Source: Jatrophihabitans cynanchi
GTDB lineage: Bacteria; Actinomycetota; Actinomycetes; Mycobacteriales; Jatrophihabitantaceae
NCBI RefSeq assembly: GCF_027247405.1
Contig: NZ_CP097463.1
Span: 1,240,001 to 1,304,000 of the forward strand
Reading direction: 5' to 3'
DNA length: 64,000 bases
Of the stretch, positions 34,922 through 63,836 are shown piece after piece. A program made the position numbers and the translations under genes. The notes below the pieces were generated by a model. The model was not told where the DNA came from. It saw nothing but the letters and a program-made list of their open reading frames with translations, and did not search any database. The stretch's first letter is position 1; the number at the start of each line of letters is the position of its first letter.

Positions 34922-34936
34922 GTATGGGGAGCGTTT

Positions 34937-35848: not shown

Positions 35849-35854
35849 CGCGTC

Positions 35855-37531: not shown

Positions 37532-37555
37532 GCGCCGCACTGGTGGTGGCGCCCG

Positions 37556-39678: not shown

Positions 39679-39681
39679 CCG

Positions 39682-40591: not shown

Positions 40592-40635
40592 GTGGAGCTG
40601 AGGGGACTCGAACCCCTGACCCCCACACTGCCAGC
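40592..40635 (-). repeat. attachment-site repeat 2: 3' fragment of tRNA-Ala(GGC)
   Basis: Identical over 44 bp to 23490..23533 and in the same orientation. Sequences on both sides differ from those of repeat 1. It lies about 190 bp before the second integrase gene. It marks the right edge of island A and the left edge of island B. An intact tRNA-Ala gene is expected to the right of the window. Confidence 0.88.
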
Positions 40636-40823
40636 GGGGTGTCAACGGTTCAGCTACTCCTTGTGTCTTCGGGCCGTCGGGTTACGATGAGCCTTATTTT
40701 ACTGCGGATATGCGGTGCCGGCGATGCCATCTGATGTCGGCTCGTATCACCGCGTGACGGCGGGTCGTAGGGTCAAATCAGGGTCCAGCCGAAACCACAC
40801 CGCCGAGGCTCATGGAGGTGCTC

Positions 40824-44139: not shown

Positions 44140-45495
44140 ATGGTAGCTGAAACCTTGAGAGTCGATTTTCTGGTCGTAGGTGGCGGAATGGCTGGACTCA
44201 CGGCCGCGGCCCGTGCGAGCGCAGCCGGCTGCCAAGTGGCTTTGGTGGAGAAGGCGCAACACACCGGCGGCTCTGCGGCGATGTCCGGTGGCGTTCTGTG
44301 GCAGCCGGCGAGCCGGGACCTGCTCAGAGCCGTCGATCCTTCGGGCGAGGCCGAGCTGGTCGACGTCTTCTTCGACCGCTTCCCCGAGGCGCTGGCCTGG
44401 GTTCGAGCCACCGGAGTCGAGGTGGGCGATCGGACCGGCGTGCTCGGCTACGGGGTCGGGCAGATCATCGACATCATCGGCTACCTCCGCGCCTGCGAGC
44501 GACAGGTTCGCAGCTCCGGCGGCTGGGTGGTGACCGGGGCGTCGGTGGACCGGCTTGTCCTTGACGGCGACGCCGTCACTGGCGCGGTCGTGACCGATCG
44601 CGACGGTACGTACGTCGTCGAGGCGAAGTCGGTCCTGCTCGCGACCGGCGGGTTCCAGGGCGACCCCGGTCGACGACGCCAGTACCTCGGTTCGGCGGCC
44701 GAGACGATGCTGCTGCGCTCGAACCCGGTCAGCGCGGGTGACGGGCTGCGCCTCGGCCTCGCGGCGGGTGCGGCTACGTCCGAGCACATGAACGGCTTCT
44801 ACGGGCACCTGATGATCTCGCCACTGTCGGCGCTCCACGAAGCAGACTTCGTCCGCCTGTCCCAGTGGTACTGCACGCACAGCATCGTAGTCAATCTCCA
44901 GGGCGAACGGATCACCGACGAGTCCCGCGGTTACGCCCTGTGTGCCCAAGCTGCGATCGCGCAGCCCGAACCGAGAGTCGCGGTGTTGTTCGACGAGCGA
45001 GTTCGCTCCACCCTTGCTGTCGGCTCTACCGGCGTGCAAGGCCTGGAGGTGGTCGATCGGCTCGCGGAGGCCCAGCGGGTCGGTGGTCGTATTGCCCAGG
45101 CCGACACATGGGAGGCGCTCGCCCAGATGATCGGTGAGTGGGGCTTCGATGGGAGTCGAAGTATGCAGACGGTCGAGACCTTCAACTTGGCCCTGGGATC
45201 GGACGAGGTGCTCTCGCCACCCCGGGACCGCTATCGAACGGCGCTCGACGAGGGGCCGTTCTTCGCCGTCGAGGCCCAGCCGGCGATCACCTTCTCGATG
45301 GGCGGCCTGCGGATCGACAAGGACGCGCGCGTACTTCGAGCCGATGGACAGGCCATCGATGGCCTCCTTGCCGCCGGTGCGGACAGCGGAGGAACCTTCG
45401 CCCACGGTTACGGCGGCGGCCTTGCCCTCGGCTCGGTGTTCGGGACGGTCGCGGCCGAGCACGCGGTTCGGCGGGCCGGACGAGTGTCGGCCTGA
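44140..45495 (+). CDS. FAD-dependent dehydrogenase, fumarate-reductase / ketosteroid-dehydrogenase type
   Basis: 451 residues. The FAD motif is VDFLVVGGGMAGLTAAARAS, and the adjoining AQHTGGSAAMSGGVLW is typical of succinate dehydrogenase / 3-ketosteroid dehydrogenase relatives. VLLATGGFQGDPGRRRQYLG and the closing LLAAGADSGGTFAHGYGGG are FAD contacts. Members introduce or reduce C=C bonds next to a carbonyl. It opens a plus-strand operon with the OYE-type, luciferase-like and amidase genes. At 451 residues it is shorter than true KstD, so a smaller cyclic enone substrate is plausible. Confidence 0.86.
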   Translation: MVAETLRVDFLVVGGGMAGLTAAARASAAGCQVALVEKAQHTGGSAAMSGGVLWQPASRDLLRAVDPSGEAELVDVFFDRFPEALAWVRATGVEVGDRTGVLGYGVGQIIDIIGYLRACERQVRSSGGWVVTGASVDRLVLDGDAVTGAVVTDRDGTYVVEAKSVLLATGGFQGDPGRRRQYLGSAAETMLLRSNPVSAGDGLRLGLAAGAATSEHMNGFYGHLMISPLSALHEADFVRLSQWYCTHSIVVNLQGERITDESRGYALCAQAAIAQPEPRVAVLFDERVRSTLAVGSTGVQGLEVVDRLAEAQRVGGRIAQADTWEALAQMIGEWGFDGSRSMQTVETFNLALGSDEVLSPPRDRYRTALDEGPFFAVEAQPAITFSMGGLRIDKDARVLRADGQAIDGLLAAGADSGGTFAHGYGGGLALGSVFGTVAAEHAVRRAGRVSA

Positions 45496-45544
45496 GACGG
45501 ATCGTCGATCCTCGTTTTCCGCGCCCCGCCACGACCAGGAGAAG

Positions 45545-47587
45545 GTGAACAGTTTGTCGGCTGATACGCAGGAAACGTCTGATCCCACCGAACCGACGAC
45601 ACCGGCCGCATATCGGCGGCTGTTCGAACCGCTGACGGTCGGAAACTTCACCGTGCGCAACCGCATCGTGAACACGACCCACAGCACCGCACTGCCGGAA
45701 CAACGCGAGCTGCGCTATCTGATCGAGCGGGCCCGTGGTGGAGTGGGCATGATCGGCCTGTTCGGCAGCGAGGGATCGGCGAACTACACCGTCGGCCACG
45801 GGCCGGCCCAGCGAACCCCGGACTGGGACCAGAAGCCGCTGCCTCCGCTCACCGACGCGGGCATCGCGTACTACGACGATCTCATCATCCCTCGGCTGGC
45901 AAAGCGGGCGAGCGCTCTCGCCGCGGAGGGCGCACGCACCTTTTCGCAGGTCTACCACCTGGGGGCCGCTCCGCACGCCCTGCGTACCGAACCGCCGGTG
46001 GGGCCGTCGGCCGTTCCCGATCCCTACGATGCGTTCGTACCGCACCCGCTGAGCGAGTCGGAGATCGGGGATCTGATCGCGGCGTTCGCACACAGCATCC
46101 GCCGGGTACGCGACGCGGGCGTCGACGCCGCGGAGATCCACGGAGCCCACGGCTACCTGATCACCCAGTTCCTGTCGCCGTACTTCAACCGCCGGACCGA
46201 CCAGTGGGGCGGCGAGCGCCCCAATCGAGTTCGCCTTCTGATCGCCATCATCGAAGCGGCACGCGAGTACGTGGGCTCCTATCCGATCGGAGTACGGCTC
46301 GGTGTCGACGGAGACGGATCCGGCCGCGGTCTCTCCGTCGAGGAGCTGGCCGCCATCGCGGCGCTGATAGCTCCCCACGTCGCGTACATCAGCGTGTCGG
46401 GTGGCAACTACTCCGGGTTCGGCACTGGTTACGAGCTTGCCTACGTGAGCCCGTGGTACCGCGAGCCGGCCCACAACGTCGCTGCCGCGGCTGCAGTACG
46501 CAAGGCAGTCGATGTGCCCGTGATCGTCACCGGGCGCATCGCCGACCCTTCTGTCGCTGAAGGCATCCTGGCGGACGGCTCCGCCGATATGGTCGGCATG
46601 GTCCGCGCGCTCATCGCCGATCCGGACCTGCCGAACAAGGTTCGGGCGGGACAGCCCGAGCGCGTGCGGATGTGTCTCGGACTCTCCGAGTGTCATCACA
46701 TCGGTTCGCACCGCACCCCGATGACGTGCGCGGTCAATGCGGCCGCGGCGCGCGAGGACGAACTGGAGCCGGTCGCGGCGGCCCGACCCAAGACCGTCGT
46801 CGTCATCGGCGCCGGACCGGCCGGCATGGAAGCCGCACGGGTCGCGGCCCTGCGCGGGCACACGGTCTACCTCGCCGATCGAGCCCGGTCCATCGGCGGG
46901 ACGCCGCGGCTGCTGGCCAACGACGCCAACCGTCGCAACCTTCGTGATCAGGCCGCGTTCTTCGAGGGCGAGCTGGCTCGCCTCGGCGTTCAGCTGATGC
47001 TCGGAAACGACGTCTCGGCCGAGGAGATCGTCGAGTTCGAACCCGATGCCGTCGTCGTGGCAACCGGCGGCACCGCGCTGATCCCGGAGCTACCTGGCCT
47101 GAGCGCGGCCACCGCGATCACCGCGACGATGGCGCTCGACGGCAGTGTCACCCTCGCCGATCGTGTCGTCGTCGTCTGCGGGTTGGACCCCGATATCGCC
47201 GGAGCGACCCTCGCCGAGTTCGCCGCGGACCGCGGCTGTGAGGTCGAGCTGATCTCCGAACACCTGGACTTCGCGAAGAACGCCGAGGACGCCACCCGGC
47301 TGACGCTCTTCGACCGGCTCGTTCGCAAAGGAGTTCGCGTCTCGAACTGCCACCGTCTCCTCTCGATCGGATCAGGCCACGTTCAGCTTCAGCACTCACT
47401 CACCGGCGAGATCCGCGTTGTCCCCGATGCGCAGGCACTGCTCGCGTGCGGGCTCACGCCGAATGACGCGCTGGCGCGCGCGCTCGAAGGACGAGTACCT
47501 GAGCTATACGTCGTCGGAGACGCGCTCGCTCCGCGCCGCATCATGCACGCGACGCTCGAAGGAGCGCGGGTCGGGCGAGAGCTGTAG
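45545..47587 (+). CDS. Old Yellow Enzyme / 2,4-dienoyl-CoA-reductase-type flavoprotein (BaiCD/TMADH-like)
   Basis: About 680 residues. The GTG at 45545 or the better-spaced TTG at 45554 is the start; the longer frame upstream is shadow. An N-terminal OYE barrel (YRRLFEPLTVGNFTVRNRIV, AGVDAAEIHGAHGYLITQF, SPYFNRRTDQWGGERPNR) is followed by FAD- and NAD-binding domains (VVVIGAGPAGMEAARVAALR). The 4Fe-4S loop reads RMCLGLSECHH to MTCAVNAA: the family pattern CxxCxxxC(n)C is altered, with Leu where the second Cys is expected. Such enzymes reduce or demethylate conjugated substrates. It lies 49 bp after the dehydrogenase gene. Confidence 0.86.
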   Translation: MNSLSADTQETSDPTEPTTPAAYRRLFEPLTVGNFTVRNRIVNTTHSTALPEQRELRYLIERARGGVGMIGLFGSEGSANYTVGHGPAQRTPDWDQKPLPPLTDAGIAYYDDLIIPRLAKRASALAAEGARTFSQVYHLGAAPHALRTEPPVGPSAVPDPYDAFVPHPLSESEIGDLIAAFAHSIRRVRDAGVDAAEIHGAHGYLITQFLSPYFNRRTDQWGGERPNRVRLLIAIIEAAREYVGSYPIGVRLGVDGDGSGRGLSVEELAAIAALIAPHVAYISVSGGNYSGFGTGYELAYVSPWYREPAHNVAAAAAVRKAVDVPVIVTGRIADPSVAEGILADGSADMVGMVRALIADPDLPNKVRAGQPERVRMCLGLSECHHIGSHRTPMTCAVNAAAAREDELEPVAAARPKTVVVIGAGPAGMEAARVAALRGHTVYLADRARSIGGTPRLLANDANRRNLRDQAAFFEGELARLGVQLMLGNDVSAEEIVEFEPDAVVVATGGTALIPELPGLSAATAITATMALDGSVTLADRVVVVCGLDPDIAGATLAEFAADRGCEVELISEHLDFAKNAEDATRLTLFDRLVRKGVRVSNCHRLLSIGSGHVQLQHSLTGEIRVVPDAQALLACGLTPNDALARALEGRVPELYVVGDALAPRRIMHATLEGARVGREL

Positions 47588-47633
47588 TACGAACGGCGCG
47601 CCGCCCGCAGCATCGAAAGATCGGAGTCGACAC

Positions 47634-48755
47634 ATGAGCGACGTGACGCGGCCGCGAGGACGTCCTCGCTTCGGCCTGGCCTACCACCTGCAGAATCCGT
47701 CCCGCTGGCGCCGGGCGCCCGAGGACCTGTACCACGAGTCGATCGAGCACGCCGCCTGGGCCGAGACGATCGGCTTCGACTCGATCTGGGTGAGCGAGCA
47801 CCACTTCGAGCCGGACGGCTATGTGTCGTCTCCCTTGATCTTTCTTGCCGGAGTGGCGACGTGCACCTCCCGGATCCGGCTGGCCTCGAACGTCATCGTG
47901 GCCCCCCTGCACCATCCACTGCGACTCGCGGAGGACGCCGCCGCCCTGTCGATCCAGTCGAAAGGCCGCTTCGACCTCGGAGTCGCGGTGGGGTACCGCG
48001 ACGAGGAGTTCCGCGCCTTCGGGCAACCGTTCCACCGGCGGGGCCAGCTGACCGAATCCCATATCGCCCGGCTGCGAGGTGCTTGGGCGGGCCAGCAGGT
48101 TTCGGTGGACGATGCCTTCCCGGACGGACCGGCCGTGACCGTCACACCGATCCCGACCAAGCCGCCGAGGATCCTGCTCGGGGGGAAGGCGCCCCGCGCG
48201 ATCGAACGCGCGGCGCGGATCGCAGATGCCTATCTCCCGCCCGCGCGACCGGGACGCGCGCGGCAATTCTTCGACGAGTATCTGGACGCCATCGAGCGCG
48301 TCGGCCGGGACCGTACGGCTGCGCAGATGATGTGCACCGTGCCGGCGGTCATCAGCGCCGATCCCGAGCGCACGTTGGCCACCGTCGGCGAGCACCTGTT
48401 GTACTACGTGAACAACTACATCAAGCTCGGCGCCTTCGCCGAGCCCGCGCCGTTCACCCAGCCCTCCGACCTCATCACGGCCGGCTACCTCGAGCTCTGG
48501 GACCCGGATACCGCGGTCCGCGAACTCACCGCGCTGCTGGGTGGCTATCCCGCGATCAGTGACGTCCGCTGGTGGGCGCAGTTCCCCGGAGAGCCGTTCG
48601 AGCAGGCATACGAACGAGCCGAGTTCTTCGCCAACCACATCAGGCCGAGAGTGGACGCCGCGTTCGAGCATCTTCGGGTCGACCGGATCGAGGATGATCG
48701 GCGGGCCGGCGAGCCCGGCTGCGGGACGGCGCGCTCGAGCGGACGACAGCCGTGA
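47634..48755 (+). CDS. Luciferase-like (LLM class) flavin-dependent monooxygenase
   Basis: The ATG at 47634 with GGAG seven bases upstream gives 373 residues. The TIM-barrel luciferase fold is shown by FGLAYHLQNPSRWRRAPEDL, WAETIGFDSIWVSEHHFEPD, ASNVIVAPLHHPLRLAEDAA and FDLGVAVGYRDEEFRAFG. The family uses FMNH2 or F420H2; the residues seen do not decide between them. Its stop overlaps the amidase GTG as GTGA. Likely a monooxygenase or reductase step of the cluster. Confidence 0.88.
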   Translation: MSDVTRPRGRPRFGLAYHLQNPSRWRRAPEDLYHESIEHAAWAETIGFDSIWVSEHHFEPDGYVSSPLIFLAGVATCTSRIRLASNVIVAPLHHPLRLAEDAAALSIQSKGRFDLGVAVGYRDEEFRAFGQPFHRRGQLTESHIARLRGAWAGQQVSVDDAFPDGPAVTVTPIPTKPPRILLGGKAPRAIERAARIADAYLPPARPGRARQFFDEYLDAIERVGRDRTAAQMMCTVPAVISADPERTLATVGEHLLYYVNNYIKLGAFAEPAPFTQPSDLITAGYLELWDPDTAVRELTALLGGYPAISDVRWWAQFPGEPFEQAYERAEFFANHIRPRVDAAFEHLRVDRIEDDRRAGEPGCGTARSSGRQP

Positions 48756-50440
48756 GCCGGGACCCGCAGTTGCCGCCGCGCACCATCGTCGATGCCGTCG
48801 AGGCGTTGCGATCGGGCGCCACGACGAGCGTGGACCTCGTCCGGACCGCCATCGAAGCCAGCGAGAGCAACAACGCTCGGCTCGCTGCCTTGGTCGAGCT
48901 CTATCGAGAGTCCGCCCTGGAAGCGGCGATCGAGGCCGACCGGGTGCTGGATCGCGCTGGACGCGCGGCGCCGATCCTCACCGGCATCCCCCTCGGGATC
49001 AAGGACATAATCACCACGCGGGAAGGGCCGACCACGGCCGAGAGCGACGCCTCCGGCGCCACTTCGCTGGCCGGTGACGCGACCGCAGTCCGCCGGCTTC
49101 GCTCGGCCGGCGGCATCATCATGGGCAAGACGGCCACGATGGAGTTCGCGTTCGGTATGCCCGACGAGCCGCGCGGCCGAGTACTTGCACGCAACCCGTG
49201 GAACGTCGAGAAGTGGGCGGGTGGATCGAGTTCCGGCTCGGCCAGCGGTATTCAGGCCGGCATGTTCCTCGGTGCGCTCGGCACCGACACCGCCGGCAGC
49301 ATTCGGCTGCCGGCCGCCTTCTGCGGCATCTCCGGGCTGAAACCCACGTTCGGTCGCGTCCCCACGTCCGGTTGCCTACCGCTCGCCTACTCGCTGGATC
49401 ACATCGGCCCGATGGCTCGAAGCGCCGCGGACTGCGCGCTACTTCTACGCACGCTCGCCGGACCCGACGGGCACGACCCGCAGGGTACCGACCAGCCCGT
49501 CGAGGACTACCTCGCCGGACTTTCCGGCGACCTGACCGGCATCCGAGTCGGCGTGATCGAGGCGGGAGCCGCGAACGACGCGGAACCTCAGCACGCCGTC
49601 GCCTTCCGCGAGTCGCTTCGTCAGTTCCAGTCGCTCGGCGCGCGGCTGGTCGACGTTCAGCTTCCCTCCTTCGTCGAGGCGTCCACCGCCACGATGACCA
49701 CGTTGATCGCCGAGGCCGCTGCGGAGCACGCCGAAGGGCTGACATCCCAGTACCTGGCGTACGGGCGATCGCTGCGGTCGCGGCTACTGACGTCTGCTTT
49801 CTTGTCCGCGACCGACTACATCCAGGCGCAAAGAGTTCGCCGCGTGGCGCAACTGCAGCTCGCGCGGGTCTACGACGACGTGGATCTCATCGTCCTACCC
49901 ACATCGATCTTCGCGGCCTTCGACTGCGCGCAGCTGTCCGCGCGCGACGAGGTGGATCTCAAGAGTTCGACGGGCATCCCGACGGCGTACTGGAACGCGG
50001 TCGGAAATCCGGTGCTGTCGATTCCGATCGGTTTTGCCCGAAACGGCTTGCCGCTCGGCTTACAGATCGCCGGTCGGCCCTTCGACGAACGCCTCGTCCT
50101 GCGGGCCGGTGACGCGTTCCAGCGGATCACGCGCTGGCACCTCGAAACACCGACATCGCTACCCACCGGTTCGGTGCCCGAGCCGGCCGATCCGGGACCA
50201 CGCGGTCACGCCGGCGAGCACCCCCGATCAGCTGACATGAGTCCGCCGACGGACCGGGGCTCGACGGCTTCGACCGTGGTACGTGGCTTGTTGGCGATGG
50301 CTGATCTCACGCCGCCCGAGCTCGAGTTCGCGAACGCCGTAGCTCGGTTCGGCCAGACGCGCGAGGACGTCCGAAGTGTTCGAGTTCTGGGGAGCGCGTC
50401 CGCAACCGTACCGGCTACCCGCTTCTCGGCGGTTCCGTGA
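48752..50440 (+). CDS. Amidase-signature hydrolase with C-terminal AtzG-like extension (second copy)
   Basis: 562 residues, a paralogue of the island A amidase. K lies in IPLGIKDIITTREG, cis-Ser in WAGGSSSGSASGIQ and the nucleophile Ser in GTDTAGSIRLPAAFCG. After the core ends, near residue 470, a tail with STASTVVRGLLAMADLTPPE and ending VPATRFSAVP again resembles a fused AtzG-like unit, less clearly than in the first copy. GTGA overlap with the luciferase-like gene. It probably cleaves an amide formed or exposed in the pathway. Confidence 0.87.
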   Translation: MSRDPQLPPRTIVDAVEALRSGATTSVDLVRTAIEASESNNARLAALVELYRESALEAAIEADRVLDRAGRAAPILTGIPLGIKDIITTREGPTTAESDASGATSLAGDATAVRRLRSAGGIIMGKTATMEFAFGMPDEPRGRVLARNPWNVEKWAGGSSSGSASGIQAGMFLGALGTDTAGSIRLPAAFCGISGLKPTFGRVPTSGCLPLAYSLDHIGPMARSAADCALLLRTLAGPDGHDPQGTDQPVEDYLAGLSGDLTGIRVGVIEAGAANDAEPQHAVAFRESLRQFQSLGARLVDVQLPSFVEASTATMTTLIAEAAAEHAEGLTSQYLAYGRSLRSRLLTSAFLSATDYIQAQRVRRVAQLQLARVYDDVDLIVLPTSIFAAFDCAQLSARDEVDLKSSTGIPTAYWNAVGNPVLSIPIGFARNGLPLGLQIAGRPFDERLVLRAGDAFQRITRWHLETPTSLPTGSVPEPADPGPRGHAGEHPRSADMSPPTDRGSTASTVVRGLLAMADLTPPELEFANAVARFGQTREDVRSVRVLGSASATVPATRFSAVP

Positions 50441-50517
50441 CGCCGCCGACGCCGTCCTGGGCCGGCGGACACGCTGCGAACCTTCGCTCATCACCGTGCC
50501 TACAGAATGGATCGGTC

Positions 50518-50778
50518 ATGCCTGCATCGACCTCGAATCACCGAGACGACGGCCACCTCTACATCGCCTTCGCCGAAGGCGCGCCGGCGGATCGACACGT
50601 CAGCGCCGTGCCGCTGGTCGCCGGCCTGGAGGCCCTGTGCGGGTACCCCGTGATCGCGACGTCCGCGCCGACGCCTTGGCGGCACGCGATCGCGGCCGCC
50701 ACCTGTCCGGCCTGCCAACGCGCCGCCATCGCGGTCGCGGGCGCGGGCGCTCTCACGCGCGAGTCGGTCGTCGGCTAG
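50518..50778 (+). CDS. Small hypothetical protein with possible zinc-binding Cys pair
   Basis: The ATG at 50518 gives 86 residues. HLYIAFAEGAPADRHVSAVP is followed by LCGYPVIATSAPTPWRHA and ATCPACQRAA. The spaced Cys and CPxC pair plus Trp resemble small actinobacterial zinc-ribbon proteins. It lies about 80 bp after the amidase gene and ends 22 bp from the convergent SDR gene. No function assigned. Confidence 0.55.
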   Translation: MPASTSNHRDDGHLYIAFAEGAPADRHVSAVPLVAGLEALCGYPVIATSAPTPWRHAIAAATCPACQRAAIAVAGAGALTRESVVG

Positions 50779-50800
50779 GTCGGCTGGCGGGCGAACCACG

Positions 50801-51556
50801 TCACTGCGCGGTCAGCCCGCCGTCGACGACCAGTTCGGCCGCGGTCATGTAGGACGATTCGTCCGACGCCAGGAACAGCACCGCGTAGGCGACTTCATCG
50901 GGCTCGCCGAAACGGCCCATCGGCAGCTGGGCCATCCGGCGATCGCGGTACTCCTCGGTGGTCCGCTCGAACATCTCCGTCCGGATGACGCCGGGGCACA
51001 CCGCGTTGACCCGGATGCCTTCGGCTGCGTACTGAATGGCAGCCGCGCGGGTCAGCTGGCGGACGGCTCCCTTGCTGGCCTGGTAGGCGACGAAGCCCGC
51101 CTGCCCGACGATGCCGGAGATGCTGGCCAGGTTCACGATCGACCCTCCGCCGGCCGCTCGGAGCGAGGGCGCGCCGTGCCTGATTCCGAGGAAGACGCCC
51201 GTCTGATTGATCTCGATCACCGATCGCCAACCGGCCACCGTTTCGTCCTCGAACCCCCCTGGTCGAACGACGCCGGCGTTGTTCACGAGAATTTGGATCG
51301 GCCCGTACCGAGCCTCGGTCCGCTCGACCGCGTGCTCCCAGTCCTGCGCGCTCGTGACGTCGAGGTGTACGAAGTCGACCTCCAGGCCGTCCTGACGCAG
51401 CTCGCCCGCCAGCTTCTGTCCGACGTCATCGTTGAGGTCGCCGATCATCACGCGCGCACCGTGCCGCGCCAGCAGGCCGGCCTGGCTCGCGCCGAGGCCC
51501 TGAGCAGCGCCGGAGACGAGGGCGATCTTGTCGCTGACGCGCCCCACCGCGTTCAC
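50801..51556 (-). CDS. Short-chain dehydrogenase/reductase (SDR)
   Basis: 251 residues. Cofactor motif LVSGAAQGLGASQAGLLA with the acidic discriminator in MIGDLNDD (NAD preference), NNAGVVRPGG, catalytic Ser in IVNLASISGIVG, YQASKGAVRQL and the closing AELVVDGGLTAQ. The GTG overlaps the stop of the aminoacylase-like gene (GTGA). It is the last gene of the minus-strand operon that begins with the amidohydrolase at 57191. An alcohol-to-ketone step before the Baeyer-Villiger enzyme would fit. Confidence 0.91.
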   Translation of the reverse strand: MNAVGRVSDKIALVSGAAQGLGASQAGLLARHGARVMIGDLNDDVGQKLAGELRQDGLEVDFVHLDVTSAQDWEHAVERTEARYGPIQILVNNAGVVRPGGFEDETVAGWRSVIEINQTGVFLGIRHGAPSLRAAGGGSIVNLASISGIVGQAGFVAYQASKGAVRQLTRAAAIQYAAEGIRVNAVCPGVIRTEMFERTTEEYRDRRMAQLPMGRFGEPDEVAYAVLFLASDESSYMTAAELVVDGGLTAQ

Positions 51557-53271: not shown

Positions 53272-53311
53272 TTCGCCTCCATCGTTGGCTCTCAGCTGGG
53301 TCGGGTACCGG

Positions 53312-54949: not shown

Positions 54950-54951
54950 GG

Positions 54952-55908
54952 TCAACCTCGCTGTTCACTGATCGTTCGCGCAGGGCCGACACACGAGCGC
55001 ATCTCGTCGAGGATCGCGGTGAACGCGACGCGGGCAGACGGCTGGATGGCGTACCGGGACAGGAAGCCGTGCATCTGACCGTCGAACCGGCGGGCTAGGA
55101 CCGGCACGCCTGCGAGCCGCAGGCGGTCGGCATAGGCTTCGCCCTCATCGCGCAGGACGTCGTGCTCGGCCGTGATCACGAGCGCCGCTGGAAGCCCGCG
55201 CAGATCGCGGACGCGCAGCGGCGAGACGGCTGGGCTCGTCCACACCGACCGGTCCGGCGCGTACAGCTCCCAGAACCAACGCATGGTGTCTCGCGTCAGC
55301 AGTAGCTGGTTCTCCGGATCCCGATAGGACGGCGTCTCCAGGTCGCCATCGGCGACCGGATAGATCAGCACCTGCAAGGCGACGGGCGGCCCGGCCGCGT
55401 CTCGGCTGCGGACAGCGGCGAGTGCGGCCAGGTTGCCGCCCGCGCTGTCACCGGCCACGATCAACGGCCCACCAGATGTCCATTCGGACTGCACCCGGCC
55501 CGCCCACCTCACCGCATCCCACGCGTCATCGACCGCGGCGGGAAAAGGGTGCTCGGGCGCGAGCCGATAGTCGACGATCGCGACCACGCAGTTCGTGCCG
55601 AGGGCGATCTCACGACCGAGCGCCTCGTAGTCGTCGACCGCTCCCACGACGAAGCCGCCTCCGTGGAAGTAGACGACGCACCCGTTCGGGTCCGTTGACG
55701 GGCAGAGCACCCGCACGCGCATCGCCGAGCCGTCCGCGCGGGGCACCAGCACGTCGCTCGCGCGGTGAACCGGTCGCTGTTGGGCCGCCGGCAGCCGCGA
55801 CCGCGCCACCTGTTCGCGGGCCTGGGCGGGGGTCAGCTCGTGGAGCGGACGGACACCGAGATCGGCAAGCTGCTCGAGCACTCGACGGCTGTCGGCGTCG
55901 AGGCTCAT
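54952..55908 (-). CDS. Alpha/beta hydrolase, HSL family esterase
   Basis: 318 residues. Oxyanion motif VVYFHGGGFVVGA, nucleophile elbow VAGDSAGGNLAAL, catalytic Asp in ITAEHDVLRDEGEAYADRL and His in DGQMHGFLSRY. The YRLAPEHPFPAAVDDAW stretch is a family hallmark. Cytoplasmic carboxylesterase, probably acting on the ester or lactone made by the neighbouring monooxygenase. Its stop is followed after two bases by the BVMO start. Confidence 0.93.
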   Translation of the reverse strand: MSLDADSRRVLEQLADLGVRPLHELTPAQAREQVARSRLPAAQQRPVHRASDVLVPRADGSAMRVRVLCPSTDPNGCVVYFHGGGFVVGAVDDYEALGREIALGTNCVVAIVDYRLAPEHPFPAAVDDAWDAVRWAGRVQSEWTSGGPLIVAGDSAGGNLAALAAVRSRDAAGPPVALQVLIYPVADGDLETPSYRDPENQLLLTRDTMRWFWELYAPDRSVWTSPAVSPLRVRDLRGLPAALVITAEHDVLRDEGEAYADRLRLAGVPVLARRFDGQMHGFLSRYAIQPSARVAFTAILDEMRSCVGPARTISEQRG

Positions 55909-55973
55909 CGTCCGCGTGACTTCGCGGCGCCAGCGTCCCGCCGCCCAGGCGCCGGTCGGTAACCGGAGGTCAT

Positions 55974-57191
55974 TTAGAGGCTGCCCAGGGCACTCGGCTT
56001 GAAGCGGAAAAGACGCTCGGCGTTCCCGCGGGAGATCTGGTATGCGGTCTGGGCGTCCAGCCCGGCCAGGGCCTTGTCCGCGTATCGGATGCTGTTCGGC
56101 CAGGTGGAGTCCGAGTGCGGATAGTCGGTCTCCATCATGATCTTGTCGATCCCGATCTTTTCGATGATCTCCATGCCGTGCGGGTCATGGATGACGCAGC
56201 CGTACACGTTCTGGTGGTAGTAGTGGCTGGGCAGCTCGGGCAGTCGCTCACGGGTGTCCGGCTGGTGTTCCCACGTCCAGTCCGCGCGCTCGAGCACAAA
56301 GGGAACCCAGCCGATGCCGCCCTCGGAGATCGCCAGCTTGAGCCGGGGGTGCCGGACGAACACCCCGCTGAGCAGCCAGTCGAAGCAGCTGATCAGGCCG
56401 TTGAAGGGTACGAAACCGGCGCGGACCGACGGCGGCATGTCGTCCGCCGTGATCACGGTCGCCGACGAGGATCCGATGTGAATGCACAGCGGTAGGTCCG
56501 CGGCAGCCATAGCGGCAAAAACCGGATCCCAATGGCCGGCGCCGTCGTGGATGGACGGCAGCCCGAGCTTCCAAGGATTCTCGGTGAAGGTAATACCGCG
56601 TGCGCCCTTGGCCGCCGTACGCTCGATCTCCGCGACCGCGAGCTGCGGGTCCCACAACGGCACGATGCACAGCGGGATGAGTCGGCCGGGCGCGGAGCCG
56701 CACCACTCGTCGATCATCCAATCGTTGTAGGCCTGCACGCAAAGCAGCGCGAGGTCCTTGTCCTTCGCCTCGAGGAAGATCTGGCCGGCGAAGCGCGGGT
56801 ACGACGGGAACGCCAAGGAACCGAGCACTCCATCGCGGTCCATCTCACGCACGCGCGCCAGCGGCTCGTAGTACGCCGCCGGCATCTCGGCAAAACTCCG
56901 CGGGGCGAAGTCGTACTCGTCCTGCTCTCGGCCGGCCACGGCGCCGAGCCCACTGGCAGATGTGGGGACCAGGGTGTCCTCGTAGGCCCACAGCTCGACC
57001 GGCCGCTTGGTGTCGACGGTGAAGTTGCGGCTGCGCAGCATCGCCGCCAGCTCGATGTCCTCCGGGCCGACGTCCCGCACGATCACCCGCGGACCGACCT
57101 CGAGATACCTCTTGGGCAGGCGGTCCTGCCACACCCCGGCCGGTTCGATGATGTGATCGTCGACCGAAACGATTGCCAGGCCCTCGCCCAT
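55974..57191 (-). CDS. Amidohydrolase_2-family metal-dependent hydrolase / decarboxylase
   Basis: 405 residues. The barrel opens with IVSVDDHIIEPAGVWQDRLP (D-x-H metal site) and ends with MMETDYPHSDSTWP, which carries the metal Asp. SEGGIGWVPFVLERADW is a further family mark. The family includes hydrolases, and decarboxylases acting on cyclic acids (ACMSD and gamma-resorcylate decarboxylase types). First gene of the minus-strand operon, divergent from the DUF35 gene. Its exact reaction is not decided by sequence. Confidence 0.88.
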   Translation of the reverse strand: MGEGLAIVSVDDHIIEPAGVWQDRLPKRYLEVGPRVIVRDVGPEDIELAAMLRSRNFTVDTKRPVELWAYEDTLVPTSASGLGAVAGREQDEYDFAPRSFAEMPAAYYEPLARVREMDRDGVLGSLAFPSYPRFAGQIFLEAKDKDLALLCVQAYNDWMIDEWCGSAPGRLIPLCIVPLWDPQLAVAEIERTAAKGARGITFTENPWKLGLPSIHDGAGHWDPVFAAMAAADLPLCIHIGSSSATVITADDMPPSVRAGFVPFNGLISCFDWLLSGVFVRHPRLKLAISEGGIGWVPFVLERADWTWEHQPDTRERLPELPSHYYHQNVYGCVIHDPHGMEIIEKIGIDKIMMETDYPHSDSTWPNSIRYADKALAGLDAQTAYQISRGNAERLFRFKPSALGSL

Positions 57192-57306
57192 CGCTCACCC
57201 CAACTGTGTTCGCCGTTGCGCTTCCGACTACAAGCTAGTAGTTAATGACTGAGTGTCAAGTGTCAGACTAATGTCTAATTACATGAACCGCTATAGGAGG
57301 TCATCC
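57192..57306. promoter_or_regulatory. Divergent promoter with TGTCAGAC-type sites
   Basis: Between the amidohydrolase and DUF35 genes. TGTCAGACTAATGTCTAATT (57261..57280) is preceded by GTGTCAAG, so TGTC half-sites repeat. AGGAGG at 57295..57300 is the ribosome binding site for the GTG at 57307. Similar sites lie upstream of both FadR-type regulator genes and the fused CoA-transferase gene. Confidence 0.5.
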
Positions 57307-57711
57307 GTGTCTGCCGTCGCACCCGTCGAGACTCCGGAAACCGCGTACATCTGGGCCGGCTACCGCGCCGGGCAGCTTCGCCTACAGCTGTGCGACGGGT
57401 GCGGCCACCCACGATTCCTGCCCGCGTACCGCTGCTCCGCGTGTGGATCGCCCGACTACACGACGATCAGCTCGGCCGGTGCCGGACACGTCTATAGCTT
57501 CGCCGTCACCCGCCGACCGGAAGAGCTGCCCCTCATCCACGACTTCCCGGTGATCGTCCTCGTGGAGCTCGACGAGGGCGTGCGGTTGATCTCGAACCTG
57601 GTCGATGTCGCGCCGGCCGATGTGCAGATCGGCCTCAGGGTGCAGGCGTACTTCGACCCGGTAACGGCGGAAGCGACCGTGGTTCGGTTCCGTCCGGTGA
57701 GCGCCTCGTGA
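57307..57711 (+). CDS. DUF35 zinc-ribbon / OB-fold protein
   Basis: The GTG at 57307 is fixed by AGGAGG six bases upstream; 134 residues. The rubredoxin-like zinc ribbon has two Cys pairs, LCDGCGHPRFLPAYRCSACG, followed by an OB fold (AGHVYSFAVTRRPEELPL). DUF35 proteins pair with thiolase-superfamily enzymes; ChsH2-DUF35 with Ltp2 forms the steroid side-chain aldolase. The following gene is exactly such a thiolase, with GTGA overlap. It is therefore probably the acyl-CoA-binding partner in a two-protein enzyme. Confidence 0.9.
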   Translation: MSAVAPVETPETAYIWAGYRAGQLRLQLCDGCGHPRFLPAYRCSACGSPDYTTISSAGAGHVYSFAVTRRPEELPLIHDFPVIVLVELDEGVRLISNLVDVAPADVQIGLRVQAYFDPVTAEATVVRFRPVSAS

Positions 57712-58868
57712 CGGCCGAAATCACACCCGTCATCGCCGGGATCGGCGCGACGGAGTTCTCGACCAGTTCCGGCCGCAGCAACATGTCGCTCGCGGTGGAG
57801 GCAATCAGCCGGGCAATGGCGGACGCCGGTCTGGACAGTCGACAGATCGGCGGCCTGGTGACGTTCTCGGTCGATCCAAACGACCCGGTGTCGACGGCGA
57901 CGGCTCTCGGGCTCTCCGAGCTCACCTACTTCTCCATCACGCCGTACGGCGGTGGCGGCGGCTGCGCGAGCGTCCAGGACGCAGCCATGGCCGTGCGCGC
58001 CGGCCTCGCCGACGTCGTAGTGGCCTACCGAGCGGCCAACCTGAGGTCGGGAACCCGGTATGGGCGCCCAGGGCCCCTGACGACATCCCCAGCGGAGAAC
58101 CTCTATCTGCCCTATGGCCTGGTCACACCGGCTCAGCGAGCCACGCTGCTGACGACGCGTTATCTCTCCGACTTCGGCCTCACCAATCAGGACCTCGCTC
58201 CGGTTGCCGTGACGCAGCGGCAGTATGCGGCGACGAACCCCAAGGCGCGATTCTTCAAACGTCCGATCACCGTCGAAGATCACCAGAACTCGCCCTGGAT
58301 CGTGGAGCCTGCCCTTCGACTGTTCGACTGCTGCCTGGAGACCGATGGCGGAGTGGCCGTGGTCGTCACCCGTGCCGACCTGGCGGCCACGCTGGACTGC
58401 ACGCCGGTCGAGATCCTCGCCACGGCCCGCGCCATGATCGGCGGTACCGGCGGGATCCTGAAAAACTTCTATCGCCCGCGGATCTACGAACTCCCCGAGA
58501 CGCGCGCCGTGGCCCGCCAGCTCTTCGACGCCTCTGGTCTTCGCCCATCCGATATCGACGTTGCCCAGTTCTACGACCACTTCTCGCCGTTCGTCCTGCT
58601 CCAGCTCGAGGCCTTCGGGTTCTGCGAAGACGGCACCAGTGCCACCTTCGTCGCCGACGGCCAGACCCGCATCGACGGGCGGCTGCCCGTCAACACCCAC
58701 GGCGGGCACCTGTCCGAGGGGTATCTGCACGGCATGAACGCCATCACCGAGGCCGTTCGGCAACTCACCGGGAACGCGGCCAATCAGGTGGACTCCGCGC
58801 GACACGCACTCGTCTCCTCTGGTCCGGGCCTGGCCACCAGCGGTCTCATTCTCCGGGCGGCGGCCTGA
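57708..58868 (+). CDS. Thiolase-superfamily protein, Ltp2-like aldolase
   Basis: 386 residues of the lipid-transfer / SCP2-thiolase group: VIAGIGATEFSTSSGRSNMS, YGGGGGCASVQDAAMAVRAG, and near the C-terminus VAQFYDHFSPFVLLQLEAFG and LPVNTHGGHLSEGYLHGMN. In the steroid aldolase Ltp2 the thiolase residues are repurposed, and tyrosines in a YDxF motif and in the GG..SEGY motif act in retro-aldol cleavage. Both tyrosines appear conserved here. With the coupled DUF35 protein it would cleave a beta-hydroxyacyl-CoA. The assignment to aldolase over thiolase is inference. Confidence 0.85.
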   Translation: MTAEITPVIAGIGATEFSTSSGRSNMSLAVEAISRAMADAGLDSRQIGGLVTFSVDPNDPVSTATALGLSELTYFSITPYGGGGGCASVQDAAMAVRAGLADVVVAYRAANLRSGTRYGRPGPLTTSPAENLYLPYGLVTPAQRATLLTTRYLSDFGLTNQDLAPVAVTQRQYAATNPKARFFKRPITVEDHQNSPWIVEPALRLFDCCLETDGGVAVVVTRADLAATLDCTPVEILATARAMIGGTGGILKNFYRPRIYELPETRAVARQLFDASGLRPSDIDVAQFYDHFSPFVLLQLEAFGFCEDGTSATFVADGQTRIDGRLPVNTHGGHLSEGYLHGMNAITEAVRQLTGNAANQVDSARHALVSSGPGLATSGLILRAAA

Positions 58869-58901
58869 CCGCATCGCCACCGATCCGATCGAAGGAGCCC
58901 C

Positions 58902-59375
58902 ATGGCCAACCAGCGCGCGCTCGTTCGCATGTCCGAGGCGGAGATCCAGCACTTCCTTTCTGGCCCGCACACGATGTGCCTCTCGACCGTGGACAAGGAC
59001 GGCTTCATCCACTCGGCCGCTATGTGGTACGCCCTCCTGGACGGACAGGTTGCCGTGCTGGCCAAACGTCGATCACAGAAGGTCGTCAACGCCCTCAGGG
59101 GTGGGCGGCTCACCGGTCTCGTGGAGGACGGCACGACGTACACCGAACTGCGCGGTGTCTGCCTCATCGGCACGCCGCGCGCCGATGACCGGCCCGAGGT
59201 CAAGGTGCGCGTGGCCCTATCGCTTTTCGATCGCTACAGCCCCGACGGCGCCACGTTCGATGCGCAGGCATCGACCTACAACCGGATCGTGCTGTGGATC
59301 GAGCCGATCAAGGTCGCTTCGTGGGATCACGCCAAGCTGCGTCCGAAGTCAGAGGACACCCTCCCGCGCGAGTGA
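58902..59375 (+). CDS. PPOX-class flavin/F420-binding protein
   Basis: 157 residues of the pyridoxamine-phosphate-oxidase-like split barrel: VRMSEAEIQHFLSGPHTMCL, TVDKDGFIHSAAMWYALLDG and AKRRSQKVVNALRGG. Actinobacterial members bind F420 or FMN and reduce conjugated substrates, or act as scavengers. GAAGGAGCCCC upstream is a good ribosome binding site. Its 3' end overlaps the convergent CoA-transferase gene by 27 bp. Which cofactor it uses is unclear. Confidence 0.84.
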   Translation: MANQRALVRMSEAEIQHFLSGPHTMCLSTVDKDGFIHSAAMWYALLDGQVAVLAKRRSQKVVNALRGGRLTGLVEDGTTYTELRGVCLIGTPRADDRPEVKVRVALSLFDRYSPDGATFDAQASTYNRIVLWIEPIKVASWDHAKLRPKSEDTLPRE

Positions 59376-61961
59376 GGCGATCTCATCGGCGGACAGCCCG
59401 AGGATCTCTCGTAGCACGTGCTCGGTGTCCTGCCCGTAGTTCGGTCCACTGCGATCGAACGGTCCGCCGATGTACGGCGGCGTTTCGCTGAACGCGACCG
59501 GCACCTCTTTGACCGGCCACCGCCCGATCTCGGCCTGGTCCAGCTCGACCAGCCAGCCCAGGTGCGCCAACTGCGGATCGGTGTCGCAGCGATCCTCAGC
59601 GGTCTGGCAGACGCCCGCCGGCACACCAGCGGCCTGCAGCGCAGCCATCAATGCGAACGGCTCCCAGTCCCGCGTGGCGCCGGCCATCAACGCGTCGAGA
59701 CGATCCTGGTGCTGTATCCGATCGGCCAGGCTGACGAAGTCGGCGTCGTTCGTCCACTCGACCCGGCCGAGAACGCGCGTGGCCGCGATCCAGTGCTCCT
59801 GCGTGAACGCCGCTATCGCGATCCACCGGTCAAGACCGTCCGTCGGGTAGACGCCGTGCGGAGCTGCCGGCCGGTAGGGCGATCGATTGCCGATGCGCTG
59901 CCAACTGCGGCCGTTCGCGCTGTGATCGAGCACCGCCGTGCCGGTCAGATAGAGGCCGGCTTCCACCTGGGACGAGTCGATCCAGCAACCGCGACCGGTC
60001 GCGTGCCGCCGGTACAGCGCCGCGAACACGGCCAGAGCCATCTGGTATGCGCCGAACCAGTCGAGGTACGAGTAGCCGATGCCCGCCGGACCGTAGGGCT
60101 CCGGCAGGCCGGACATGTCGCTGAGCCCCGACATCGCCTGGGCGGTCGGCCCAAACGCCCGCAAGCCGCGGTACGTTCCGTGCTGGCCCATGCCGCTCTG
60201 CTGTACGTAAACGAGATCGGGCTTCACCGACCGCAGCACGTCGTAGCCGAGACCCATCCGGTCCATGGTCCCGGGCGAGAATCCTTCGACGAGGACGTCG
60301 GCGGTACGAACCAGTTCGAGCAGCAGCTCCCGTGCTCGGGGAGCTTTGAGGTTTAGGCTCATCGCCAGCTTGCCGGCGTTGATGTCCATGAAGGCGCCGC
60401 TGCGATTGACACTCGTCGTAGGCGTCGGGGTCAGCGGCCCGGTCGCCCGGTCGCGCTCGGCCCGGCCGCCGTCCGGCGCGGTCCCCAGACCGCCTCGCAT
60501 TCCGTCGAGCCGGCTCTCGTGCTCGACCTTGATGACTTCGGCACCGTGCGCGGCAAGGAATCGGCCGGCGCCGGCACTGGCCAGGAACCAGCTGAGGTCG
60601 ACCACCCGGACACCGTCGAGCGCGAAGGGCTTGCCCCGTGGGCTCAGCCGGCCCGGCCCTGACGTAGGGGGCGGTATCGACCGGGGACGAGTCGCACGCG
60701 CGGCCACCTCGGCGAGCACGCTCTCGGTGTGCTCGCCGAGCATCGGGGCGCGCGGGCCCGTGCGCCACCCCGCGTCCGGGCAGAACCACCGCGAGGTGAC
60801 GTGGGTGAAGGCCCGACCGAGCTCGGGGAACTCGACGTCGGTGAAGGTGTCGCGCGCTAGCCAATGGGCATCGCCGACGTTCTCCTCCGGACGGCGCACC
60901 GGCGCCCACGCCATGCCCGCCGCCTGGCCCTCCAACCACAGGTCCCGGTCATAGGTGAAGCTGCGCACGAAACGATCGACGACCGCGTCGACGTGGAACA
61001 GGTTCTCCGGGCGGTGCAGCACCGCCGGGTCGGCGTACCTCTCATCGGCGAGATCGTCCGCCAGCCCGTACGACGCCAGCACCTTGGCGATCGTCGACAC
61101 CGTCGATCCGAAGCCACGCAGGTAGGTGCGGTAGGGCAGAATCCACCGGCCGTCCTTCGTGCGGGAGACGCCGGGCGTCATAACTCCGGCCGCACTGGCC
61201 GAACCGTCGGTCCGCCGGCCGAAGGAGTGGCGGCAGGTCAGCCGTCCGTGCGGAACCCGGTTGAAGATCCAATCCGGCACGTCGGTCTCGGTGTTACCGC
61301 TGACGACCTGGTGCACCGACGCGCTCAGTCGCTGTCCGCGACCGGACCGCTGACGGCTGAGGAGCGCGACGATCACCTGCATCGCGGCCAGCTCGCCCAC
61401 CATGTGGTAGGCCTGCCACATCTGCGGAGCCACCGGCGGCGCGTCGTACGTGCCGTCCGGCTCCGGGTCGTACCCGCAGTTCATGATCACGCCGCCGAGC
61501 GCCAGGTGGATCAGGTCGCTCCCCTGGTAGTCCGCCCACGGACCGGTGTCGCCGAACGGGCTGATCCGGACCTGGACCAGACCCGGATTGCGCTCGGCCA
61601 GTACGTCCGGCCCCAGTCCCCGGTCGGTGAGGTAACCGCGCGGGCGTGAGTCGATCAGCACGTCGGCGTCGGCCACCAGCTCCAGGAATCGATCCCGATC
61701 CTCGGTTGCGTCCAGGTCGAGGACGACGCCACGCTTGCCGAAGTTGTAGTGCCAGAAGTGCAGACTCCGGTTCGGGTGCGGGATGTCGTCGAGGAACGGC
61801 CCGAACGCGCGCGTGCGTTCGCCTCCGAGCGGCTCGATCTTGATGACATCGCCACCGAGCCCACCGAGCAGTCGTCCGCAGAACTCGCCGAGTTCGTCTG
61901 CGACTTCGACGATCCGGACGTCCGAGAGAAAGCCTGCCTGCTGGTCCTGGTCGGTCGACAA
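59349..61961 (-). CDS. Tandem-fused class III CoA-transferase
   Basis: The TTG at 61961 has AGGAG seven bases upstream, giving about 870 residues, twice the normal family length. The N-terminal half has SDVRIVEVADELGEFCGRLL and GGDVIKIEPLGGERTRAFGP. The C-terminal half repeats the pattern with LDGVRVVDLSWFLASAGAGR, GAEVIKVEHESRLDG and VEGFSPGTMDRMGLGYDVL. The catalytic Asp position of the second half is in RGCWIDSSQVEAGLYL; in the first half the matching RGQRLSASVHQVVSGN has no Asp, so that half may be inactive. It would activate an acid intermediate as a CoA ester. Confidence 0.88.
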   Translation of the reverse strand: MSTDQDQQAGFLSDVRIVEVADELGEFCGRLLGGLGGDVIKIEPLGGERTRAFGPFLDDIPHPNRSLHFWHYNFGKRGVVLDLDATEDRDRFLELVADADVLIDSRPRGYLTDRGLGPDVLAERNPGLVQVRISPFGDTGPWADYQGSDLIHLALGGVIMNCGYDPEPDGTYDAPPVAPQMWQAYHMVGELAAMQVIVALLSRQRSGRGQRLSASVHQVVSGNTETDVPDWIFNRVPHGRLTCRHSFGRRTDGSASAAGVMTPGVSRTKDGRWILPYRTYLRGFGSTVSTIAKVLASYGLADDLADERYADPAVLHRPENLFHVDAVVDRFVRSFTYDRDLWLEGQAAGMAWAPVRRPEENVGDAHWLARDTFTDVEFPELGRAFTHVTSRWFCPDAGWRTGPRAPMLGEHTESVLAEVAARATRPRSIPPPTSGPGRLSPRGKPFALDGVRVVDLSWFLASAGAGRFLAAHGAEVIKVEHESRLDGMRGGLGTAPDGGRAERDRATGPLTPTPTTSVNRSGAFMDINAGKLAMSLNLKAPRARELLLELVRTADVLVEGFSPGTMDRMGLGYDVLRSVKPDLVYVQQSGMGQHGTYRGLRAFGPTAQAMSGLSDMSGLPEPYGPAGIGYSYLDWFGAYQMALAVFAALYRRHATGRGCWIDSSQVEAGLYLTGTAVLDHSANGRSWQRIGNRSPYRPAAPHGVYPTDGLDRWIAIAAFTQEHWIAATRVLGRVEWTNDADFVSLADRIQHQDRLDALMAGATRDWEPFALMAALQAAGVPAGVCQTAEDRCDTDPQLAHLGWLVELDQAEIGRWPVKEVPVAFSETPPYIGGPFDRSGPNYGQDTEHVLREILGLSADEIASLAREGVL

Positions 61962-63800: not shown

Positions 63801-63836
63801 TCGCGCAGCCTCCATTTGTCGGTCGGCTGCATATTC

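Follow-up and report, generated by a model that had tools for sequence, protein, structure and literature searches.

A predicted dinuclear oxygenase beside a hydratase-free Ltp2-type aldolase in a mobile gene cluster of Jatrophihabitans cynanchi

The DNA considered here is a 64-kb stretch (the window; genome positions 1240001-1304000) of the complete, one-contig 4.5-Mb genome of Jatrophihabitans cynanchi, which at window positions 44140-61961 carries a cluster of enzyme genes, termed island B, at the beginning of an integrative element. Gene families were named via Pfam and NCBIfam scans, with some start codons chosen by ribosome-binding sites, and these scans confirmed the gene set that a preliminary description, made from the letters alone, had named at this place. 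At about even odds (≈ 0.5), the cluster can be read as the catabolic core for a bulky cyclic acid or ketone, in which a C−C bond would be cut by an oxygenase-primed retro-aldol reaction. The genes of the cluster and the two regulators beside it are as follows:

44140-45495, plus strand: FAD-dependent dehydrogenase of the fumarate reductase/KstD superfamily (PF00890, FAD_binding_2)
45554-47587, plus strand: old yellow enzyme (OYE)/FadH-type flavoenzyme (PF00724 and Pyr_redox_2)
47634-48755, plus strand: luciferase-like (LLM) oxidoreductase (PF00296)
48752-50440, plus strand: amidase-signature enzyme (PF01425, E = 7e-95; GGSSSG motif)
50437-50778, plus strand: 113-aa open reading frame (ORF) with no Pfam match, overlapping the amidase gene by 4 bp
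50801-51556, minus strand: short-chain dehydrogenase/reductase (SDR; PF13561)
51553-53271, minus strand: Amidohydro_3 protein, D-aminoacylase-like (PF07969)
53312-54955, minus strand: type I Baeyer-Villiger monooxygenase (BVMO), phenylacetone/steroid monooxygenase-like by phmmer and fingerprint (alternative ATG at 54949)
54952-55908, minus strand: HSL-type alpha/beta esterase (PF07859; HGGG and GDSAG motifs)
55974-57191, minus strand: predicted DitZ/PtmU3-type dinuclear oxygenase, annotated Amidohydro_2 (solved relatives, fold, metal-site residues)
57253-57711, plus strand: standalone DUF35 protein, C4 zinc ribbon and OB fold (PF12172 and PF01796)
57708-58868, plus strand: predicted Ltp2-type retro-aldolase (6ok1 similarity, tyrosines, PRK07855)
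58902-59375, plus strand: PNPOx-fold protein, F420/PPOX-like (PF01243; TIGR03618 below cut-off)
59349-61961, minus strand: fused tandem class III CoA-transferase (CaiB), BbsE-BbsF-like (PF02515 in two stretches)
62076-62831, minus strand: GntR/FCD regulator, FadR-type (PF00392 and PF07729)
63057-63815, minus strand: second GntR/FCD regulator, FadR-type (PF00392 and PF07729)

Gene order and overlaps point to a first unit of the FAD dehydrogenase, OYE, LLM, amidase and ORF genes on the plus strand (44140-50778), a second of the Amidohydro_2, esterase, BVMO, Amidohydro_3 and SDR genes on the minus strand (57191-50801) and a third of the DUF35, Ltp2 and PNPOx genes on the plus strand (57253-59375); judged by gene order, the tandem CoA-transferase and the GntR pair, whose members are mutually 58.5% identical, probably form the remaining units, both on the minus strand. 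Several neighbours overlap by 4 bp (48752/48755, 50437/50440, 51553/51556, 57708/57711), and a gap of only 61 bp separates the divergent Amidohydro_2 and DUF35 genes, so the grouping is more than chance. The regions upstream of the units were searched for a shared operator and hold no 10-mer common to all, so that co-regulation is argued from gene order; pairs of these regions, such as those before 44140 and 61961, share a few 10-mers, possibly by chance, and the palindromes, one of them before 62831, fall elsewhere. A tRNA-Ala(CGC) called by ARAGORN at 62505 was set aside, as it falls inside a GntR gene on the opposite strand.

The DUF35/thiolase-like pair is, by sequence, of the Ltp2 type and a predicted retro-aldolase. 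The larger protein aligns over its full length with TcLtp2 (PDB 6ok1; E = 5e-113; 51.7% identity, 194/375 aligned residues) and reaches 486 bits in NCBIfam PRK07855, against a cut-off of 469. Its Tyr289, in the motif YDHF, and Tyr339, in EGYLHG, align with Tyr294 and Tyr344 of TcLtp2, which PMC12329534 describes as catalytic base and acid. Early on, a steroid-like retro-aldol step by a pair with both aldolase tyrosines had been proposed for this locus, and these residues, together with the identity to TcLtp2 and the family score, support it. Among 86 aligned Ltp2-like rows, the window's included and the long-branched G009_L058 left out, the motif accompanies the second tyrosine as YDHF in 38, as YDAF in 29 and as YDCF in 13. 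The partner is a standalone DUF35 protein of 152 aa without a MaoC domain, featuring a zinc ribbon of the form CxxC-x10-CxxC, with 9myr_B and 6ok1_B as its best solved relatives. The pair thus shares with the ChsH1-ChsH2-Ltp2 system (TcLtp2, 6ok1) the Ltp2 family, both tyrosines, the YDHF motif and a C4-zinc-ribbon DUF35 partner; in contrast to that system, its DUF35 protein is not fused to MaoC, and purpose-built hidden Markov models (HMMs) for the MaoC hydratase and the acyl-CoA dehydrogenase gave no match in the 64-kb window. What usually accompanies Ltp2 can be seen in the same genome at 3.66 Mb (locus L028), where the translations reveal a canonical operon of acyl-CoA dehydrogenase, MaoC-DUF35, MaoC and Ltp2, and by this measure a hydratase is missing beside the window pair. 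Both the missing hydratase and an oxygenase that might replace it were absent from the preliminary description.

The gene that diverges from the pair (55974-57191) has DitZ and PtmU3 as its nearest relatives in both sequence and fold, and we propose that it encodes a dinuclear oxygenase, not an amidohydrolase. The best solved relatives of its product are DitZ (PDB 8uyr, entitled "Manganese-substituted DitZ from Rhodococcus rhodochrous"; E = 2.8e-65), PtmU3 (PDB 6omp; E = 1.1e-34) and ACMSD (E ≈ 3e-17). A fold search with its AlphaFold model (pLDDT 83.7, pTM 0.89, 11 sequences in the alignment) returned two chains of DitZ first and PtmU3 next, occupying ranks 1-3, followed by a structural-genomics entry and then by amidohydrolase-related dinuclear oxygenases (AROs) intermixed with ACMSD. 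AROs are defined in PMC10811679, and the PF04909 fold that belongs to the definition was found here by Pfam and by the fold search. Residues D11, H13, H238, E290, D356 and H359 correspond to the AibH2 ligands D25, H27, H211, E265, D337 and H340, and D361 aligns with the acidic residue at AibH2 342/PtmU3 313, which beside AibH2-type ligands is said in PMC7782822 to mark binuclear sites. The seven metal-site residues are invariant in 16 aligned sequences (the oxygenase and 15 homologues), and in a wider set of 26, again including the oxygenase, the six ligands are kept in 26/26. PMC7782822 also calls PtmU3 a β-hydroxylase that takes CoA-ligated substrates, where "β" may be meant stereochemically. 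With PtmU3 (platensimycin/platencin) and DitZ, the latter of which was compared by sequence, fold and PDB title only, the window protein shares the Amidohydro_2 TIM barrel of these oxygenase relatives and the seven metal-site residues; unlike the biosynthetic PtmU3, its gene neighbours that of an Ltp2-type aldolase which retains both tyrosines. C-5, the position concerned in PtmU3, is also the carbon β to the carboxyl group.

From gene content, residues, nearest relatives, gene linkage and mobile context we infer the activities, the order of steps and the kind of substrate, a bulky cyclic acid. The tandem CoA-transferase (59349-61961) would yield an acyl-CoA, the dinuclear oxygenase would use O2 to hydroxylate the β-carbon of this thioester, and the DUF35/Ltp2 pair (57253-58868) would release a ketone or aldehyde from the β-hydroxyacyl-CoA, leaving a shortened acyl-CoA. 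A ketone might then be converted by the BVMO to an ester or lactone to be hydrolysed by the esterase; the genes for these two enzymes follow the oxygenase gene in the same orientation. The FAD dehydrogenase (by desaturation next to a ketone), the OYE, the LLM protein and the SDR would adjust C=C and C=O groups, and the amidase and the Amidohydro_3 protein may free the acid from a conjugate. Hydroxylation and retro-aldol cleavage would in this way stand in for the acyl-CoA dehydrogenase and the MaoC hydratase of the ChsE-ChsH1/ChsH2-Ltp2 steroid pathway, and priming by an oxygenase would be required at a quaternary α-carbon, as in resin and kaurenoic acids, because dehydrogenation and hydration cannot work there. 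Since a ring-hydroxylating dioxygenase and a P450 lie on the same element, the substrate may fairly be guessed to be a polycyclic acid that is partly aromatic or can be aromatised, for example a resin acid.

Beyond this cluster, one may tentatively envisage a general route in which a CoA-transferase, an ARO and a hydratase-free DUF35/Ltp2 pair would introduce a hydroxyl group straight at the β-carbon of an acyl-CoA, which they would then cut by a retro-aldol reaction. If true, such a route would bypass dehydrogenation and hydration and open acids with a quaternary α-carbon, explain Ltp2-type aldolases that work without a hydratase, and provide a likely role for the "amidohydrolase family" genes repeatedly found next to DUF35/thiolase pairs. 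It would also offer a candidate enzyme for the 5-hydroxylation of resin acids by Pseudomonas abietaniphila, a position β to the carboxyl group, for which PMC13063091 reports the hydroxylated acids and leaves the enzyme unnamed.

The linkage of Amidohydro_2 genes to Ltp2-like loci was followed in a collection of 84,980 species, from which the best 80 of 292 loci were taken, limited to those sharing a short peptide with the query, with the own genome possibly left out. A MaoC gene within 4.5 kb defines 13 of them as canonical, and 67 are without one. Amidohydro_2 genes occurred within 3 kb in 15/67 loci without MaoC and in 0/13 with MaoC, and their density fell from 0.037/kb at 0-3 kb to 0.0028/kb at 6-10 kb from the Ltp2-like gene; this decay with distance is a clearer sign of linkage than the MaoC contrast. 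A further 16 loci of other kinds (316 kb) gave one Amidohydro_2 match. Within 5 kb, MaoC was found in 0/15 Amidohydro_2-linked and 3/52 other loci (13/13 canonical loci by definition), and an acyl-CoA dehydrogenase in 2/15, 9/52 and 11/13, respectively. In the own genome, three of the six DUF35 loci, including that of the window, have an Amidohydro_2 gene within 3 kb (circular-shift p 0.001); the linked thiolase-like protein of one locus, L030, has neither tyrosine, so the link between Amidohydro_2 and DUF35 is broader than the aldolase. Both CaiB and Amidohydro_2 lie within 5 kb of the Ltp2-like gene in 8/80 loci, from Actinomycetota, Pseudomonadota and Myxococcota. The hydratase-free loci L079 and L103, which belong to the same Ltp2 clade as the window, have CaiB and Amidohydro_2, with CaiB being a fused tandem in L103 and cut by the contig end in L079. 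The cluster as a whole was not found elsewhere: at E 1e-120 the class-wide search returned 1/296 genomes, the own one, and among the 84,980 species no locus (of the best 80 of 292) exceeded 53%, with no counterpart of the whole cluster. The genus of the source was represented by none of the 60 relatives searched.

Related combinations are found on other replicons. In the genus of Paraburkholderia unamae, a DitZ-like gene occurs in 6/97 genomes, with a DUF35 gene ~10-51 kb away on the same contig in 6/6. In genome G610, this DUF35 gene is paired with a thiolase-like gene, and 2.5 kb separate the pair from a ring-hydroxylating dioxygenase; the DitZ-like gene there has a tandem CaiB 5 kb away. 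Judged by its dioxygenase, this unannotated region is probably a dit cluster. The element of island B may resemble the dit clusters of abietane diterpenoid catabolism in having a P450 and a ring-hydroxylating dioxygenase, the alpha subunit of which is 34% identical to that of G610 over 220 aa, no more than a family resemblance; in the window itself, tblastn with the G610 protein found no such dioxygenase (best E 0.72). The dioxygenase brings the element nearer to the dit clusters and leaves the odds of oxygenase-primed cleavage as before. On plasmid pJCM12687 of Mycobacterium branderi, genes for an 820-aa CoA transferase, an amidohydrolase, a thiolase and an OB-fold protein are contiguous, and plasmids of Rhodococcus sp. 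DK17 and R. qingshengii hold CaiB and DUF35 genes, a thiolase-like stretch, transporter genes and a 45-46% homologue of the window oxygenase. Each part is of a known kind; an ARO together with a hydratase-free DUF35/Ltp2 pair was not found described among the papers listed by the literature searches, as judged by titles and abstract openings.

Several observations weigh against oxygenase-primed cleavage. The Amidohydro_2 HMM was built from 26 sequences, some of them from the tested loci themselves, and the contrast between canonical and other loci in Amidohydro_2 linkage is not significant (Fisher p 0.11). The acidic residue is Asp or Glu in just 15 of the 26 collected Amidohydro_2 sequences, Ala or Gly occupies this position in the proteins encoded beside Ltp2 in L079 and L103, and the strict form of the arrangement (acidic residue kept, CaiB within 5 kb) is confined to 3/80 loci (L100, L101 and L118). 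A small Rieske ferredoxin, according to PMC10811679 a common though not strict neighbour of AROs, was not found by tblastn with two Rieske queries or by a motif scan of the window, L033, L194 and L195:1-900; the single Rieske protein in these scans was the dioxygenase in L194, and weak or isolated matches (a minus-strand motif in the window; tblastn E ≥ 0.05) were set aside as chance. A MaoC gene (L033) and an acyl-CoA dehydrogenase gene lie farther along the element and might serve Ltp2. Furthermore, R. rhodochrous plasmid pGD02.2.1 carries a cluster of ~21 kb (L147:5125-26275) comprising Ltp2, two DUF35, a MaoC pair, two CaiB, FAD proteins, a P450, a BVMO-like protein (32%), an alpha/beta hydrolase and a DitZ-like, 46% homologue of the window oxygenase; as Ltp2, DUF35, the MaoC pair and this Amidohydro_2 gene fall within 15.4 kb, a hydratase and such an oxygenase can occur together. 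The three nearest relatives of the tandem CoA-transferase (57-59%) are encoded away from DUF35/Ltp2 and Amidohydro_2, and because of these other neighbourhoods the tandem enzyme was rejected as a marker of the module. Finally, the dit-type thiolase-like protein (L182:14158-15635, G610) keeps a DUF35 partner and has YDGF and Arg where Ltp2 has YDHF and Tyr; with Arg at the position of Tyr344 it is probably not the same aldolase, and its chemistry may differ from that of Ltp2.

Of the alternatives, the order of steps set out in the preliminary description survives best, although it is unlikely: the BVMO would turn a cyclic ketone into a lactone for the esterase to hydrolyse, CoA would be attached to the new acid and Ltp2 would cut a side chain, with the amidases pointing to a nitrogenous or conjugated substrate. 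The enzymes needed are present. The BVMO carries the fingerprint FxGxxxHxxxW[PD] (FEGRILHTARWP), the esterase has its motifs, activation with CoA is provided for by the tandem transferase, whose C-terminal half is best matched by 9fn0_B and N-terminal half by 9fn0_A (BbsF and BbsE), and the amidase and Amidohydro_3 are hydrolase families. Such an order leaves unexplained where the β-hydroxyacyl-CoA comes from, given that hydratase and acyl-CoA dehydrogenase were not found in the window, and it assigns no role to the DitZ/PtmU3-like gene. Moreover, the BVMO is nearest to phenylacetone monooxygenase (PAMO, 631 bits in phmmer) and steroid monooxygenase (598 bits), ahead of cyclohexanone monooxygenase (498 bits); the two former act on side-chain methyl ketones, and ring opening via a lactone is possible rather than indicated. 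Removal of a progesterone-type side chain is the work of a BVMO and an esterase, and the window resembles this route in its PAMO/steroid monooxygenase-like BVMO with an adjacent esterase gene; unlike there, the BVMO gene sits within a CoA/aldolase cluster. In 6/13 BVMO loci (L035, L036, L037, L044, L045, L046) the BVMO homologue has an esterase homologue next to it, and the 13 have in common mainly the BVMO and its esterase. As to nitrogen, two amide-cleaving enzymes had been invoked and left unspecified, and three amidase/amidohydrolase-type genes are present: the amidase (41% identical to one at 35855 in the neighbouring island A) and the Amidohydro_3 protein (best solved relative D-aminoacylase; homologues of 61% in L059 and 49% in L194) may cleave amides, whereas the third is the DitZ/PtmU3-like one, so that a nitrogenous or conjugated substrate is weakly suggested. 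Taken as a whole, the earlier interpretation is partly supported.

It is rather improbable, too, that the pair is a second aldolase for steroid or sterol side chains that acts on a steroid thioester and borrows a hydratase from the 3.66-Mb operon or the MaoC of the element. The window protein is 51% identical to the canonical Ltp2 of its own genome, and in a quick 87-row tree it groups with MaoC-linked actinobacterial Ltp2s, L080, L079 and L103 (SH-aLRT 94); a steroid monooxygenase-like BVMO, a FAD protein of the KstD superfamily and a MaoC in the element fit as well. Its branch is long (0.92), however, the order inside the clade is not settled by the tree, and the closest row reaches 54% over aligned columns; the pair has also brought along its own DUF35 protein, which in characterised complexes is part of the hydratase (PMC12329534). 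The earlier labels of a KstD-like flavoprotein and a BaiCD-like OYE hold for the superfamilies; as equivalogs both were rejected, with 145.7 vs 789 bits for KstD (its best model among the 25 of 71 NCBIfam families listed) and 312.9 vs 825 bits for BaiCD. In the FAD protein, Tyr265 faces Arg402 of flavocytochrome c3 (1m64 row) and Tyr424 faces Arg544, and its middling model (pLDDT 78, 5 sequences) gave flavocytochrome c3, urocanate reductase and then KstD as best folds. The OYE has 2,4-dienoyl-CoA reductase and trimethylamine dehydrogenase among its best solved relatives, and its iron-sulfur motif (CLGLSEC...C), compared by eye with the usual motif, seems short one of four cysteines.

More doubtful still is the view that the Amidohydro_2 protein is an ordinary mononuclear decarboxylase or C−C hydrolase and that the pair carries out a simple retro-aldol step towards the end of β-oxidation. 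PF04909 includes carboxylases, hydratases and hydrolases, according to PMC10811679, and ACMSD structures are among the sequence and fold matches; against this, DitZ and PtmU3 rank far above ACMSD by the E values given above, and the DxH motif and the extra acidic residue are kept. That the pair is a true BbsAB-like thiolase, working with a BbsEF-like CoA-transferase and the SDR, finds an argument in BbsEF as best solved relative of the CoA-transferase and in the bbs operon with its DUF35, thiolase, SDR and CaiB genes, and is highly improbable and was rejected on the active site, where the nucleophilic Cys of the BbsB CSAG motif faces Gly in the phmmer alignment, with 381 bits for TcLtp2 vs 96 for BbsB. 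The cluster resembles the bbs operon of benzylsuccinate degradation in its tandem CaiB, akin to BbsE and BbsF, and its DUF35/thiolase-fold pair, and differs from it in lacking the thiolase nucleophile, in the fusion of the CoA-transferase and in the presence of oxygenases.

For the remaining oxidoreductases the assignments are broad. The LLM protein had no model above cut-off among the 25 of 31 NCBIfam models listed. The best NCBIfam relative of the SDR is trans-4-hydroxycyclohexanecarboxylate dehydrogenase, below cut-off, while the subfamily PRK07231 is above it (237 vs 215 bits).

The integrative element that carries island B begins with the following features:

40587-40639, no strand assigned: att repeat, 3' part of tRNA-Ala(GGC), left end of the element (31-bp core and att alignment)
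40812-42161, plus strand: tyrosine integrase of the element (PF00589)

An exact 31-bp stretch of tRNA-Ala(GGC) occurs at window positions 23500 and 40602 and at genome positions 1344864 and 1496245, the intact tRNA gene being found only at the last. A tyrosine integrase follows the first two att copies within 0.25 kb; the third is separated by 11.3 kb from the next integrase, which is preceded by a weaker att-like match (local score 31/43). The integrase at 40812-42161 is 67% identical to that at 23609 and 87% to L195:12201, the three being 64-87% identical. Since att copies bound it and the integrase follows att, island B is taken as a 64.3-kb element from ~40.6 kb to genome position 1,344,894, of which the window holds the first 23.4 kb and 40.9 kb lie beyond. 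The three att copies, the intact tRNA and the three related integrases (1263500-1496275) suggest tandem accretion of islands A and B and at least one more element within the next 151 kb.

Beyond the window, the element carries a second DitZ-like gene (43%; L033), divergent from a second FAD dehydrogenase (65%), and beside this pair lies a gene for an ADP-forming acyl-CoA synthetase. The element further encodes another Amidohydro_3 (49%), a 2-oxoacid dehydrogenase E1, a thiamine pyrophosphate enzyme and CaiB, as well as a P450 beside the alpha (PF00355 and PF00848) and beta (PF00866) subunits of the ring-hydroxylating dioxygenase (L194:17429-19212, genome ~1341429-1343212); some others, an ABC transporter among them, were read only by eye.

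Island A (23485-40639) is a separate 17.1-kb element with the same tRNA-Ala att and its own integrase (23609-25045). Its genes encode AMDase-like, isochorismatase-domain, CaiB, HMGL-like and amidase proteins; it also has an ABC transporter whose parts include Peripla_BP_4 and BPD_transp_2.

Other mobile DNA is found outside the two islands. In the window, a Mutator-family transposase occurs twice, as identical 1590-bp copies in inverted orientation (16619-18208 and 21105-22694), and a 485-aa protein near the canonical Ltp2 operon (L028:15121-16578) equals it in length and composition score. Two more exact inverted repeats (861 and 738 nt) fall at 1033-2621 and 15760-18946, as if a transposon insertion had split one mobile sequence. 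A Fic/DOC family protein is encoded at 18928-20133, between the inverted transposase copies.

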